Shown: positions 53,886 through 57,717 of the stretch, one piece after another
How the letters are laid out: every line of letters starts with the position of its first letter
Numbering within the stretch: the first letter of the stretch is position 1
DNA from: Nitrososphaera sp.
Lineage (GTDB): Archaea > Thermoproteota > Nitrososphaeria > Nitrososphaerales > Nitrososphaeraceae
Assembly: GCA_029263715.1 (NCBI GenBank)
Contig: JAJUFP010000007.1
Location: 88,319 to 152,318 of the forward strand
Direction of reading: 5' to 3'
DNA: 64,000 bases
Made by a program: the position numbers and the translations under genes
The notes under the pieces: model-generated
Told to the model about the DNA's origin: nothing
Database searches by the model: none
The model's input: only the letters and a program-made list of their open reading frames with translations

Positions 53886-55173
53886 GCCGTTCCGTGTCAC
53901 GGGGATACAGCACGACATCGCGGATGTTCTGTGCGCCGGTGAGAACCATCATCAGCCGGTCAAAGCCAAGGCCCCACCCAGAGTGCGGCGGCATGCCCCA
54001 GTCAAAGGCCTTCAGGTGCTCTGAAAAGCTGGCCGGGTTGAGACCCTGCTCTGCCAACCTACTCCTCAGTTTTTCTGGGTCGTGCAGCCTGCGGCCGCCA
54101 GATACCAGCTCCAGGTAGCCGTACTGCAGGTCAAAGGACTTGGACAGCTTGGGGTTGTCTTCCTTTTCATGGATGTAAAACGGCTTGAGTTTTAGCGGCC
54201 AGTCCATGATAAAGTAAAACCCGCGGTGAATCTCGCCCAGCCGGCGCAAGGCTGCGTCTGACAGGTCGTCTCCAAACTGCAGCTTCTCGCCTTCCTTGGA
54301 CAGCTCTTCAAGGCACTGCTCGTAGGTCAGCCGGTCTATCTTGTCAAAGGACAGGTCTGTCTTTAATCCGGCGGTCTCGACATCAGCCCGCCTTTTCTCG
54401 CGGAACTCGCGGATCACGTTTCCAACCAGCCTTTCGACGATGTCCATGACGTCCTCGTAGTCCATGTAGGCGGCCTCGACATCAACAGATATGAACTCGG
54501 AAAGGTGCCGCACCGTATGCGAGTTTTCTGCCCGGAAATACGGCCCTATCTCAAAGACCCGGTCCAGTCCCAGGGTCAGCTGTTCCTTGTACAGCTGCGG
54601 GCTCTGGGCCAGGTATGCTTTGCGCTTGAAATAGTCAAACCCAAAAAGGTTGGCGCCACCCTCACTGGCGCTTCCAATCACCTTGGGGGTGTTGACCTCG
54701 ATGAACCCCTCTTTTGCAAGAGTATCGCGTATAACCTGCAGTCCGGCTGAGCGAAGCCGAAAGATGGCCGCTACCCGCGGATTTCTCAGGTCAAGGGCCC
54801 GGGCGTCAAGCCTCTTGTCAAAGGATGACTCGACTCTTCCTGTGGGGTCTATGGGAAGCGGGTGGACTGCCCGTGTAAGCACTGTGAATTCCGTGACCTT
54901 GACTTCTATTGGAAAGTCCTTGGCCTTGCTTTTCTGAACCGTGCCGGCCGCAACGATGGCAGACTGCCTTGGCGTCTGGACTGCCAAAGGCACGTTGTCG
55001 CCGGTCACCACCAGCTGGCAGGCGCCAGTCACATCGCGGACCGTGATGAAGGCCAGTTTGCCTATATCCCGTATGTCTTCAATCCAGCCGCCGATGCGGA
55101 CCTGCTTTCCAACCAGGTCTTCACCCAGCTGGCTTGCATAATGGGTTCTATGAATGTCTGTCATCTTGATCAC
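53875..55173 (-). CDS. aspS: Aspartyl-tRNA synthetase (archaeal type)
   Basis: A 432-residue class IIb synthetase. N-terminal OB fold (VRIGGWIEDIRDIGKLAFITVRD), then motif 2 (YFRAENSHTVRHLSEFISVD) and motif 3 (GWGLGFDRLMMVLTG). The ATG overlaps the KH-protein stop by 4 bp, so the two form an operon. Archaeal AspRS may be non-discriminating (charging tRNA-Asn as well); that depends on the GatCAB partner. Confidence 0.96.
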   Translation of the reverse strand: MIKMTDIHRTHYASQLGEDLVGKQVRIGGWIEDIRDIGKLAFITVRDVTGACQLVVTGDNVPLAVQTPRQSAIVAAGTVQKSKAKDFPIEVKVTEFTVLTRAVHPLPIDPTGRVESSFDKRLDARALDLRNPRVAAIFRLRSAGLQVIRDTLAKEGFIEVNTPKVIGSASEGGANLFGFDYFKRKAYLAQSPQLYKEQLTLGLDRVFEIGPYFRAENSHTVRHLSEFISVDVEAAYMDYEDVMDIVERLVGNVIREFREKRRADVETAGLKTDLSFDKIDRLTYEQCLEELSKEGEKLQFGDDLSDAALRRLGEIHRGFYFIMDWPLKLKPFYIHEKEDNPKLSKSFDLQYGYLELVSGGRRLHDPEKLRSRLAEQGLNPASFSEHLKAFDWGMPPHSGWGLGFDRLMMVLTGAQNIRDVVLYPRDTERLTP

Positions 55174-55697
55174 CTGTATTCAAACTCGACTAAAAGCTCG
55201 ATGTTCCTTACGGCCTTGGCTATCTTTTGGATCTTGGCAATGTCTTTTTTCTGGTCCGGCCTGCCAGCAACAACGACTTTTGTTACCTTGCCGTCTGGAA
55301 GCCAGAACTGGTTGACGCTCAGCACCCTGGCCGGGTGGAACAGGCTTTCAACGAACTGTCTTTCTGATGACTCGGATTCCAAGAACCAGACCTCCTGGCC
55401 AAACTCATTTCCTATCCTTTCTGCCAGGGCCGGGTTCCTGCGCAGGGCCATGACATCGGGATTCCTCAAAACCAGCACAAAGTCGTCATCCACCCTGGCG
55501 CTCTTGACCAGAGTGAACTTGTCGACTTCTGGGCTTTTGCTGGCAACCTTGGATAGTTTGATGGATGCATCCACATCGTCCTGCGTCAGCGCTCCAGACT
55601 GGAGTCTTGCCTCGCATTTGGCGCATAGAACGCCGGTCTTGGCGTCAAACGAGCAGATGGGAACCTTCAAGCTTGGACTCCTGTTATAAACTTGCAT
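55170..55697 (-). CDS. KH-domain protein, NusA-like, upstream of aspS
   Basis: A 175-residue protein beginning MQVYNRSPSLKVPICSFDAKTGVLCAKC. The N-terminus has a C-x2-C unit (LCAKC) and the C-terminal part contains the KH-like VVVAGRPDQKKDIAKIQKIAKAV. This order is typical of archaeal KH/NusA-like RNA-binding proteins. It overlaps aspS by 4 bp. Its TATA-like element (CCATATAA, 55713-55720) lies just inside the left target duplication of element B. Confidence 0.7.
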   Translation of the reverse strand: MQVYNRSPSLKVPICSFDAKTGVLCAKCEARLQSGALTQDDVDASIKLSKVASKSPEVDKFTLVKSARVDDDFVLVLRNPDVMALRRNPALAERIGNEFGQEVWFLESESSERQFVESLFHPARVLSVNQFWLPDGKVTKVVVAGRPDQKKDIAKIQKIAKAVRNIELLVEFEYR

Positions 55698-55733
55698 TAT
55701 TTTAATTGACTGCCATATAACCGGTATGAAGAA

Positions 55734-55772
55734 TACACCATTCATCTGCATATTCAAACCATGTTCAAGATG
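55734..55772 (+). repeat. Left terminal inverted repeat of element B
   Basis: Starts TACACCATTCATCTGC and ends CATGTTCAAGATG at 55772. Complementary to the right repeat apart from two mismatches and a 3-nt gap. Confidence 0.85.
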
Positions 55773-55927
55773 AAGGGCAGTTGTTGCACGCTTGTCTGTT
55801 AACTTCGAGTGATGAATCTATAATTTTATCATATGAATTCGTACGTTGGAACGGATAAAGCAGTTGATATTATAAAAGACAACAAACAGATCAGAAAACT
55901 TAATGCAAACCCAAAGTCAGCCATACT

Positions 55928-56644
55928 ATGCAAGTCGAATTATTGAATAGAATGAACGAGAAGAACAAGGCAGAAATGCCAAATTGGACCCGTATTGCTA
56001 GTTTAATACCTTCAACATTTCCAGAATCAATGTCGGATTTATTGGATTTTGCTCAAACTCATACTAGCGTATATTCCAAGATGGCATTTGCTGACTACCA
56101 TTATCACATCTTGAACCAAGTTTATCGACCAAATCAGACAGACAGGCAGTCTGATACCCCCGAATGGGTCATGGCAGAACTATATGCAATTATCAATAGT
56201 CTATATTCTGCACTTGACACCTTAGGATATGAGATAAGCTTAGCTTACAAGTTGAGTTTTAGTGCAGGGGATATTTATATTAGCCACAATCATGCTGAGC
56301 CAAAGAAAGATTGCTTTAGATGTTCTTTGCCTACTTCGGAGCAAATTACATCCTATCTAAATAGAGAATTGAATCAAAATTGGTTTGATACATTCAAAAA
56401 ATTACGTAACCAGATAAATCACAAGAATCTGGTCGTTAGTAGTATTGTTATACGTGTTGACGGAAATGATAATACAACACTGCTGAAAATTCCTAGAGAC
56501 TCATCAAAATTTGCTCCACCACCGTCGGATTTCATTCACGAAATCAACCAATATTGTCTGGAAAGAAGAGATAATGTAATAAAATTGATTGACAACGCAT
56601 ATCCATTAATTGAGTCACAAATACGAAACACCTTCAAAATTTAG
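55928..56644 (+). CDS. HEPN-like protein with RX4H motif, cargo of element B
   Basis: A 238-residue, mainly helical protein. It contains R160-NQIN-H165 (KKLRNQINHKN), an RX4H motif of the HEPN ribonuclease type, after a helix-rich N-terminal part with an aromatic YHYHILNQVYR segment. HEPN proteins are often toxins or defence effectors. A TATA-like CTATAATTTTATC is upstream near 55818-55830. The gene is low-GC, unlike its surroundings, so it looks acquired. The fold assignment rests on the RX4H motif and helical pattern. Confidence 0.55.
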   Translation: MQVELLNRMNEKNKAEMPNWTRIASLIPSTFPESMSDLLDFAQTHTSVYSKMAFADYHYHILNQVYRPNQTDRQSDTPEWVMAELYAIINSLYSALDTLGYEISLAYKLSFSAGDIYISHNHAEPKKDCFRCSLPTSEQITSYLNRELNQNWFDTFKKLRNQINHKNLVVSSIVIRVDGNDNTTLLKIPRDSSKFAPPPSDFIHEINQYCLERRDNVIKLIDNAYPLIESQIRNTFKI

Positions 56645-56656
56645 CAAAACCACACG

Positions 56657-56698
56657 CATCTTGAACATGTAAGTTTGAATATGCAGATTAATGGCGTA
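56657..56698 (-). repeat. Right terminal inverted repeat of element B
   Basis: Read on the minus strand it begins TACGCCATTAATCTGC and ends CATGTTCAAGATG. Followed by ATGAAGAA at 56699-56706. Confidence 0.85.
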
Positions 56699-56742
56699 AT
56701 GAAGAACAACGTATTATAGGCAGCAGGAAGCCCGGCGATCAG

Positions 56743-57717
56743 ATGCTTGCCCCGGCAGACAAGAAACTTGCAGTGTCCGGCCTAAAGGCGTACTATATGA
56801 CTGAGGCCGGCCCGGTCAAGGCTGTCGACGGGGTGGACCTGGAACTGGCGCCAAATGAGTCCCTTGGAATAGTGGGCGAGTCTGCCTGCGGGAAAAGCAG
56901 CCTTGGCGCGGCATTGATGCGATCGCTGCAGGCCCCCGGTAAGATAGTCGAGGGCTCCGTGGTTTTGGCCGGCCAGGACGTCTCCAAGCTATCGAACTCG
57001 GAGTTCAACAGGCAAGTGCGCTGGAAAAAAATAGCCATGGTCTTTCAGGGCGCCATGAATGCCCTTGACCCTGTCTACACTGTGGAAAGCCAGCTGCGTG
57101 AGCTTTTAAAAGAGCACGGTTTTGAAGGCGACTTACACGACAAGATAGCCAAATCCCTGGAGCAGGTGGACCTTGACCCGTCGGTGGCATCCAGGTACCC
57201 CCATGAGCTGTCCGGCGGCATGAAGCAGCGCGTTGTCATAGCCATGGCCCTGCTTTTGGAGCCAGACCTGCTGATAGCCGACGAGCCCACCACCGCCCTT
57301 GACGTGCTTGTACAGTCGCAGATAATAAAACTGCTGAAAAAACTGCAGGAAGAAAAGGGCATCACAGTCATCCTCATCAGCCATGACCTGGGGCTTGTCT
57401 CCCAGCTGGCAAGCAAGATAGCCATAATGTACGGCGGCCAATTGATAGAAGTTGGGTCCACACAGGACATCTACAAAAACCCCAAGCACCCGTACACACA
57501 GGCCCTGATTGCCGCAGTTCCCCGGCTTAGGTCCGACAGCAAAAAGATCCACTTTATACCCGGAAGCCCGCCAAACCTGCTCAACGCGCCGGAAGGCTGC
57601 AGGTTTTACGATCGCTGCCCGTACGCCATGGATGTCTGCAAAAAAACGCCGCCAGAGTTCAAGACAGAGACCGGGTACGTGCGCTGCTGGCTTTATGATC
57701 CTAAAGGAAAGGAGTAG
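56743..57717 (+). CDS. Peptide/nickel-type ABC transporter ATPase (DppD/OppD-like)
   Basis: A 324-residue ATP-binding protein of the dipeptide/oligopeptide importer type. Walker A GESACGKSS, Q-loop FQGAMNALDPVYTV, signature ELSGGMKQRVVIA, Walker B LLIADEPTTALD, and the C-terminal oligopeptide-family region FIPGSPPNL ... CRFYDRCPYAMDVCKK (cysteines possibly for an Fe-S cluster). No permease or binding-protein genes adjoin it in this window, so it is an orphan here. A TATA-like TATTATAGG at 56712-56720 precedes the ATG by about 28 nt. Confidence 0.9.
   Translation: MLAPADKKLAVSGLKAYYMTEAGPVKAVDGVDLELAPNESLGIVGESACGKSSLGAALMRSLQAPGKIVEGSVVLAGQDVSKLSNSEFNRQVRWKKIAMVFQGAMNALDPVYTVESQLRELLKEHGFEGDLHDKIAKSLEQVDLDPSVASRYPHELSGGMKQRVVIAMALLLEPDLLIADEPTTALDVLVQSQIIKLLKKLQEEKGITVILISHDLGLVSQLASKIAIMYGGQLIEVGSTQDIYKNPKHPYTQALIAAVPRLRSDSKKIHFIPGSPPNLLNAPEGCRFYDRCPYAMDVCKKTPPEFKTETGYVRCWLYDPKGKE

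Follow-up and report, generated by a model that had tools for sequence, protein, structure and literature searches.

The window analysed here comprises 64,000 nucleotides of a Nitrososphaera sp. genome (assembly GCA_029263715.1, contig JAJUFP010000007.1, positions 88,319 to 152,318). Between a NusA-like/KH gene and a divergently read ABC transporter ATPase gene it contains an inserted element of 965 bp, whose only open reading frame (ORF) of at least 80 aa belongs to a family matching HEPN proteins and is predicted to encode a ribonuclease (RNase); the coordinates of all features are collected in Table 1. The element is bounded by terminal inverted repeats made of two blocks each: the left arm reads TACACCATTCATCTGCATATTCAAAC-CATGTTCAAGATG and the right arm, reverse-complemented, reads TACGCCATTAATCTGCATATTCAAAC-TTA-CATGTTCAAGATG. 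The two arms are identical at 37 of the 39 aligned positions with one gap of 3 nt, and a repeat search pairs them as 26 nt at 92% and 13 nt at 100%. Both copies of the 8-bp direct repeat ATGAAGAA directly abut the outer edges of these arms. The GC content of the element is 35.8%, against 50.9% for the rest of the window, and its interior is compact, with the gene starting 155 nt from the left arm and stopping 12 nt from the right one. No transposase is encoded in it, as judged from the ORF list, from the Pfam and NCBIfam matches of the gene family and from a six-frame translation inspected by eye. A first-pass annotation of this DNA, made from the letters alone, had described these repeats and one low-GC gene without a transposase, and its description is correct base for base for the repeats and accurate for the gene.

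Table 1. Features of the element and its two neighbours (positions in the window)
Feature	Coordinates	Strand	Remarks
Left neighbour, NusA-like/KH protein (host gene, outside the element)	55170..55697	-	several relatives named transcription antitermination factor NusA-like
Left target duplication copy, 8 bp ATGAAGAA	55726..55733	+	read in the sequence; single copy at the L012/G259 empty site
Left terminal inverted repeat, 39 nt	55734..55772	+	outer block 26 nt (55734-55759), inner block 13 nt (55760-55772)
Leader, left repeat to gene	55773..55927	+	presumed promoter region
HEPN-family gene, 238 aa	55928..56644	+	predicted RNase; sole ORF of at least 80 aa in the element
Right terminal inverted repeat, 42 nt	56657..56698	-	3 nt extra between its two blocks
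Right target duplication copy, 8 bp ATGAAGAA	56699..56706	+	read in the sequence
Right neighbour, oligopeptide/dipeptide ABC transporter ATPase (outside the element)	56743..57717	+	PF00005 E 6.2e-26, PF08352 E 7.9e-24

The element arose at this place by an insertion with an 8-bp target duplication. This is established by another genome of the same genus (G259, locus L012), where the junction between the KH and ABC genes is without the element and carries a single ATGAAGAA; the junction ATATAACCGGTATGAAGAATAACCTATTATAGGC and the rejoined flanks of the window, ATATAACCGGTATGAAGAACAACGTATTATAGGC, are identical at 32 of 34 bases. A precise later excision in G259 would give the same trace, and even so the duplication would still record an insertion. 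In fact, just such an empty site between orthologues of the two neighbours had been proposed as a check of the insertion claimed in the first-pass annotation, and the claim is upheld by it. The opposite reading, in which inverted and direct repeats happen to surround a resident gene and nothing was ever inserted, can appeal to the single copy and to nothing else. The local inverted score of the two 200-bp element ends is 59 while the best of 300 dinucleotide shuffles reaches 35. Moreover ATGAAGAA occurs only four times on the forward and three times on the reverse strand of the whole window, so chance is very unlikely to have placed it in exact register with the outer edge of each arm. Together with the empty site, which refutes the chance reading and leaves it practically no credence, the shuffles and the exact register bear out the earlier remark that so exact a duplication is hard to get by chance.

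The neighbourhood of the insertion is variable in the genus. The KH neighbour is present in 14 of the 18 genomes of our genus search (own genome included), and both neighbours were recovered in eight loci of other same-genus genomes; left out of this count are L024, with only a 40-aa piece of the KH and a 22-aa piece of the ABC protein, and L013, L020, L021 and L023/L025, where the ABC gene was not recovered. The HEPN gene lies between the two neighbours in none of the eight, and one of the genomes concerned (G132) has a distant relative of it at another place. L012 is the only one of the eight loci that retains the target; in the remaining seven the KH-ABC interval has diverged and is without ATGAAGAA. 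For example in L014, L016, L017 and L019 the interval measures 303-819 bp and is occupied by other sequence, with a 116-aa ORF in L016 and, as seen by eye, a response-regulator-like stretch in L019. The interval seems to be prone to gene gain. As for the host, the NusA-like neighbour has close relatives that bear the name Nitrososphaera sp. (e.g. P0031, at 72% identity), so the organism is probably a Nitrososphaera-like archaeon, and by this placement alone it would be an ammonia oxidiser.

With respect to the gene product, the RX4H motif claimed in the first-pass annotation is present at R160 and H165 (R160-N-Q-I-N-H165, also of the Rx4-6H form). In an alignment of 28 family proteins, where the row P0001, being the window protein with a later start, was replaced by the full-length window protein, His165 is conserved in 28 and Arg160 in 26 of the 28. 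The profile PF18730 (Cthe_2314-like HEPN) is matched by 17 of these 28 proteins at E<=0.01, the best at 7.2e-7; the family members are 26-50% identical to the window protein, whose reading frame is intact. On these grounds of sequence we predict that the protein is a HEPN-family RNase. Besides the motif, the family conserves a His/CxRC cluster (H120, C129, R131 and C132; codons 120-132, 56285-56323), which to our knowledge is unusual for a HEPN protein. In profile comparisons the cluster is weakly similar to the zinc ribbons of Spt4 and GRF, and a sequence-profile search of the PDB gave two weak matches over residues 117-155, to Spt4 (E 0.06) and to RNA polymerase subunit E'' (E 0.094), which may be taken as a hint of a zinc site. 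The PADLOC defence models gave no match, NCBIfam gave nothing useful, and no transposase model is found among the Pfam or NCBIfam matches of the family.

The last result bears on a reading in which the element moves itself, the HEPN-like protein acting also on the ends that enclose it. It would suit the fact that this is the sole protein of at least 80 aa between the ends, but the family matches HEPN and no transposase model, four relatives of the gene described below are without such ends, and we know of no HEPN transposase; the reading is thus highly improbable. In the leader we noticed a 37-codon ORF (55833-55946) whose last 19 nt overlap the beginning of the HEPN gene; no counterpart of this ORF was found upstream of the same four relatives. 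A structured RNA element in the leader was considered and ruled out, its fold being no better than that of shuffled sequences (z 0.17).

We consider it probable that the element is a mobile insertion cassette with a HEPN-family gene, and that a DDE-type transposase encoded outside the element likely mobilised it in trans. Mobilisation in trans is suggested by the combination of no transposase inside with intact ends and a target duplication. The transposase would recognise the two-block ends and take the element from a donor, and the cassette would then be joined to a target, between the divergent KH and ABC genes, that had been cut with an 8-bp stagger, an event whose outcome is read in the sequence while its enzyme is postulated. 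As the insertion fell between divergently read genes, both reading frames are whole and both promoters are presumably intact. In response to a trigger such as infection or stress, the predicted HEPN RNase would cleave RNA by means of Arg160 and His165 and would thereby slow or stop the cell. Considering that no minimal nucleotidyltransferase (MNT) antitoxin is encoded in the element or directly beside it, the protein would have to be restrained by other means, intrinsic or supplied by the host, and the conserved His/Cys cluster, perhaps binding zinc, is a speculative candidate.

A number of results weigh against this explanation, some with regard to the protein and others with regard to the mobility. 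The window protein alone matches no HEPN model in Pfam, and the HEPN identity asserted in the first-pass annotation therefore holds by way of the family, not for the protein itself. A Foldseek search against the PDB gave no match at E<=0.001, and although HepT accounts for four of the eight best-scoring rows in the fold comparison, unrelated helical proteins equal HepT in score (8.2, 7.9, 7.7). Moreover, a relative in the genome G370 (L027:5117-5845, G370:C51, in a neighbourhood of 58% GC) has RSQIAC at the position of the RX4H motif, with the catalytic His changed to Cys, so that not every member of the family would be an active RNase; this relative and those in G201 and G132 are not rows of the 28-protein alignment.

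As for the mobility, no further copy of the ends was found. In the own genome, which is 93.6% complete, the core end pattern with 3 mismatches and no length change allowed recovered the left end of the element only. The 26-nt outer block with 3 mismatches was found in one of the 400 genomes of the class sample, that is in the own genome without a second copy, and in none of the 399 others; similarly the exact end pattern with a gap of 0-6 nt was found in one of the 398 genomes of a phylum sample (324 of them new, the rest shared with earlier samples, so that it overlaps the class sample), which is again the own genome, and in none of the 397 others. The ends are likewise absent from the viral contigs (0 matches) and from the plasmids and phages searched, and neither the protein nor its DNA was found in plasmid or phage records. 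As the ends were seen nowhere else in the material searched, there is no proof of repeated or recent mobility. The transposase families PF12762 (IS1595), PF01609 (DDE_Tnp_1) and PF01610 (ISL3), the only ones searched, have 0 matches in this incompletely recovered genome, while of 14 control genomes 1 has matches to PF12762, 9 to PF01609 and 4 to PF01610. A looser search of the own genome, with the 16-nt tip and 2 mismatches, gave 16 matches, namely the two own ends and 14 others, compared with 6 when the pattern was reversed as a control. The sole inverted pair within 1 kb among the 14 others (C1:270200/270853) was rejected as a second copy and is ascribed to chance, as its arms do not extend; the pair takes in the final part of one ORF (217 aa) and a portion of another (176 aa), and of the two copies of a 12-nt direct repeat one is situated 3 nt beyond its left tip, whereas the other lies not beyond the right tip but about 110 nt within it.

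The single copy and the lack of an active partner are also what would be seen if a conventional insertion sequence or transposon, bearing an additional gene, had landed here and an internal deletion had then removed its transposase; the remainder would be a fossil that has never transposed in the shape it now has. The two substitutions and the 3-nt gap between the arms would agree with this history, as such differences appear when selection on the ends has ceased. However, the stretches on both sides of the gene are short, as given above, no remnant of a transposase was seen by eye in the six-frame translation, and the target duplication is still perfect, which suggests little decay. We regard such a fossil as unlikely, though it deserves to be kept in mind. 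For the cassette moved in trans, the proposal of the first-pass annotation, the balance is a mixed one: it fits a transposase-free element with intact ends, whereas no full-length insertion sequence with such ends was found in the source genome and the three families are absent. The same annotation had named two observations that together would speak against it, namely no other copy of the ends in any genome, and uninserted loci that nevertheless carry both repeats. The former was made in the genomes searched, while the latter was not, since the sole target-keeping locus has a single copy; with only one of the two come true, the earlier reading is not refuted.

The spreading that was claimed for the element can also be judged from the relatives of its gene. 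In the class sample the family was seen in 7 of the 400 genomes, own genome included, of which G338 (E 3.8e-4) and G065 (E 6.2e-4) were weak and were dropped as carriers, as a larger alignment gave no match to them (0 matches in G338, G065 absent). In the own taxonomic family the gene is found in 5 of 70 genomes, again with the own one included and with G336 weak (E 6.6e-4), and in another taxonomic family in 1 of 250. Scans of genome contigs and viral contigs by sequence pattern confirmed no such gene; they must be less sensitive, or did not cover these genomes, because the genome profile search later found relatives. Four relatives (in G087, G132, G370 and G201) were examined together with some 5 kb of flanking DNA at either end. 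None of the four genes is enclosed within 700 bp by inverted repeats of more than 12 nt, as judged by an 8-nt-seed search that recovers the window's own ends, and a 9-nt-seed search gave four inverted pairs of 16-22 nt (75-84% complementary), none of which flanks the gene. The gene family is thus not shown to occur in cassette form, and, as the class and phylum genomes hold no second copy of the ends either, the claimed spreading is not borne out.

The settings of these relatives differ. The one in G087 (L026:15-9329, G087:C31) is near an 879-aa type-B organellar/viral DNA polymerase, an SLFN_AlbA_2 protein and, further on, a TnpB-like protein, and the stretch is possibly an integrated mobile element. 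The distant one in G132 (L029, G132:C1:2422500-2433500) lies downstream of an integrase-like gene (below the Pfam cut-off), a DNA methylase and a DUF5677 protein, in what is perhaps a defence or mobile island. For G370 and G201 no mobile or defence marker was seen in the one neighbour scanned in each. Such surroundings, close to mobile or defence-type genes in two of four loci, could be cited for another history, where the HEPN gene was captured once, its ends are now irrelevant, and selection acts on it as an anti-virus RNase in this lineage; the intact frame and the motif residues kept across the family at 26-50% identity would agree with this. But no PADLOC model matches the protein, neither adjoining gene is one of defence, and all eight other same-genus loci with both neighbours lack the HEPN gene at this position, which gives no sign of retention across species. 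A one-time capture of this kind is improbable in our view.

Going beyond the mobile insertion cassette, which remains the explanation we favour, one may imagine that ammonia-oxidising archaea possess a minimal unit of mobile immunity. In it a solitary HEPN RNase that restrains itself would sit between transposon ends, and a transposase from a new archaeal family, one that makes 8-bp duplications and uses two-block repeats ending in TAC, would carry it from genome to genome and onto mobile elements. We put this forward as a long shot; if it were true, an RNA-cutting defence effector would travel without a mover and without an antitoxin. In any case the predicted-RNase cargo offers a concrete case for how solitary HEPN effectors are tolerated and moved, and the orphan ends provide an exact probe for the transposase that recognises them.

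Among the known systems, passenger genes lie between the ends of insertion sequences in mobile insertion cassettes (MICs), while miniature inverted-repeat transposable elements (MITEs) are short and non-coding. Both are described in passages of PMC3129680 as derivatives of insertion sequences without their own transposase that can be activated by a cognate one, and the titles in the reference lists of PMC3129680 and PMC2266710 tie MIC231 of Bacillus cereus to IS231. The element is like a MIC in its terminal inverted repeats, target duplication, passenger gene and lack of an own transposase; unlike MIC231 it has an archaeal host and a HEPN cargo, and the search for an insertion sequence with the same ends gave none. 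With MITEs it shares the inverted ends, the target duplication and the absence of an own transposase (PMC3129680 for the missing transposase), but it has a complete gene and is single-copy. The palindrome-associated transposable elements (PATEs) of Haloquadratum are likewise archaeal and mobile without a transposase; in passages of PMC3119063 they are said to lack terminal inverted repeats, to produce no target duplication and to be too small to encode a transposase, whereas our element has both the repeats and the duplication and falls outside the PATE definition.

The cargo has its own parallels. By PF18730 the family resembles the Cthe_2314-like HEPN proteins, which a table of a 2013 survey (PMC3710099) assigns to bacteria and for which it records neither fusions nor operon partners; unlike them, the gene here is found in Nitrososphaeria, in a mobile cassette, and with the His/CxRC cluster. 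In comparison with HepT/MntA it would likewise encode a HEPN RNase, but the adjacent minimal nucleotidyltransferase that defines a HEPN-MNT toxin-antitoxin pair is lacking, as there is no MntA-type partner in or next to the element, where the neighbours are the NusA-like/KH and ABC ATPase genes. HEPN genes as cargo of mobile elements are mentioned in the same survey for an integron cassette (PDB 3jrt; PMC3710099) and in a 2019 survey for the thaumarchaeal casposon NitEve-C1, as a HEPN nuclease (PMC6563490); these are carried in an integron and a casposon, while the window gene stands alone between transposon-type ends. The thaumarchaeal survey of 2019, as far as its excerpted text goes, counts 244 insertion sequences of 13 families and lists composite transposons, made of transposase and passenger genes, among the classes not detected in archaea (PMC6563490). 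A base-resolved cassette in this archaeal class, with a passenger, an empty site and no transposase, thus takes its place beside and not within the composite transposons. To sum up, its architecture is already known, and the archaeal host, the HEPN cargo and the orphan ends make the element a variant of it.
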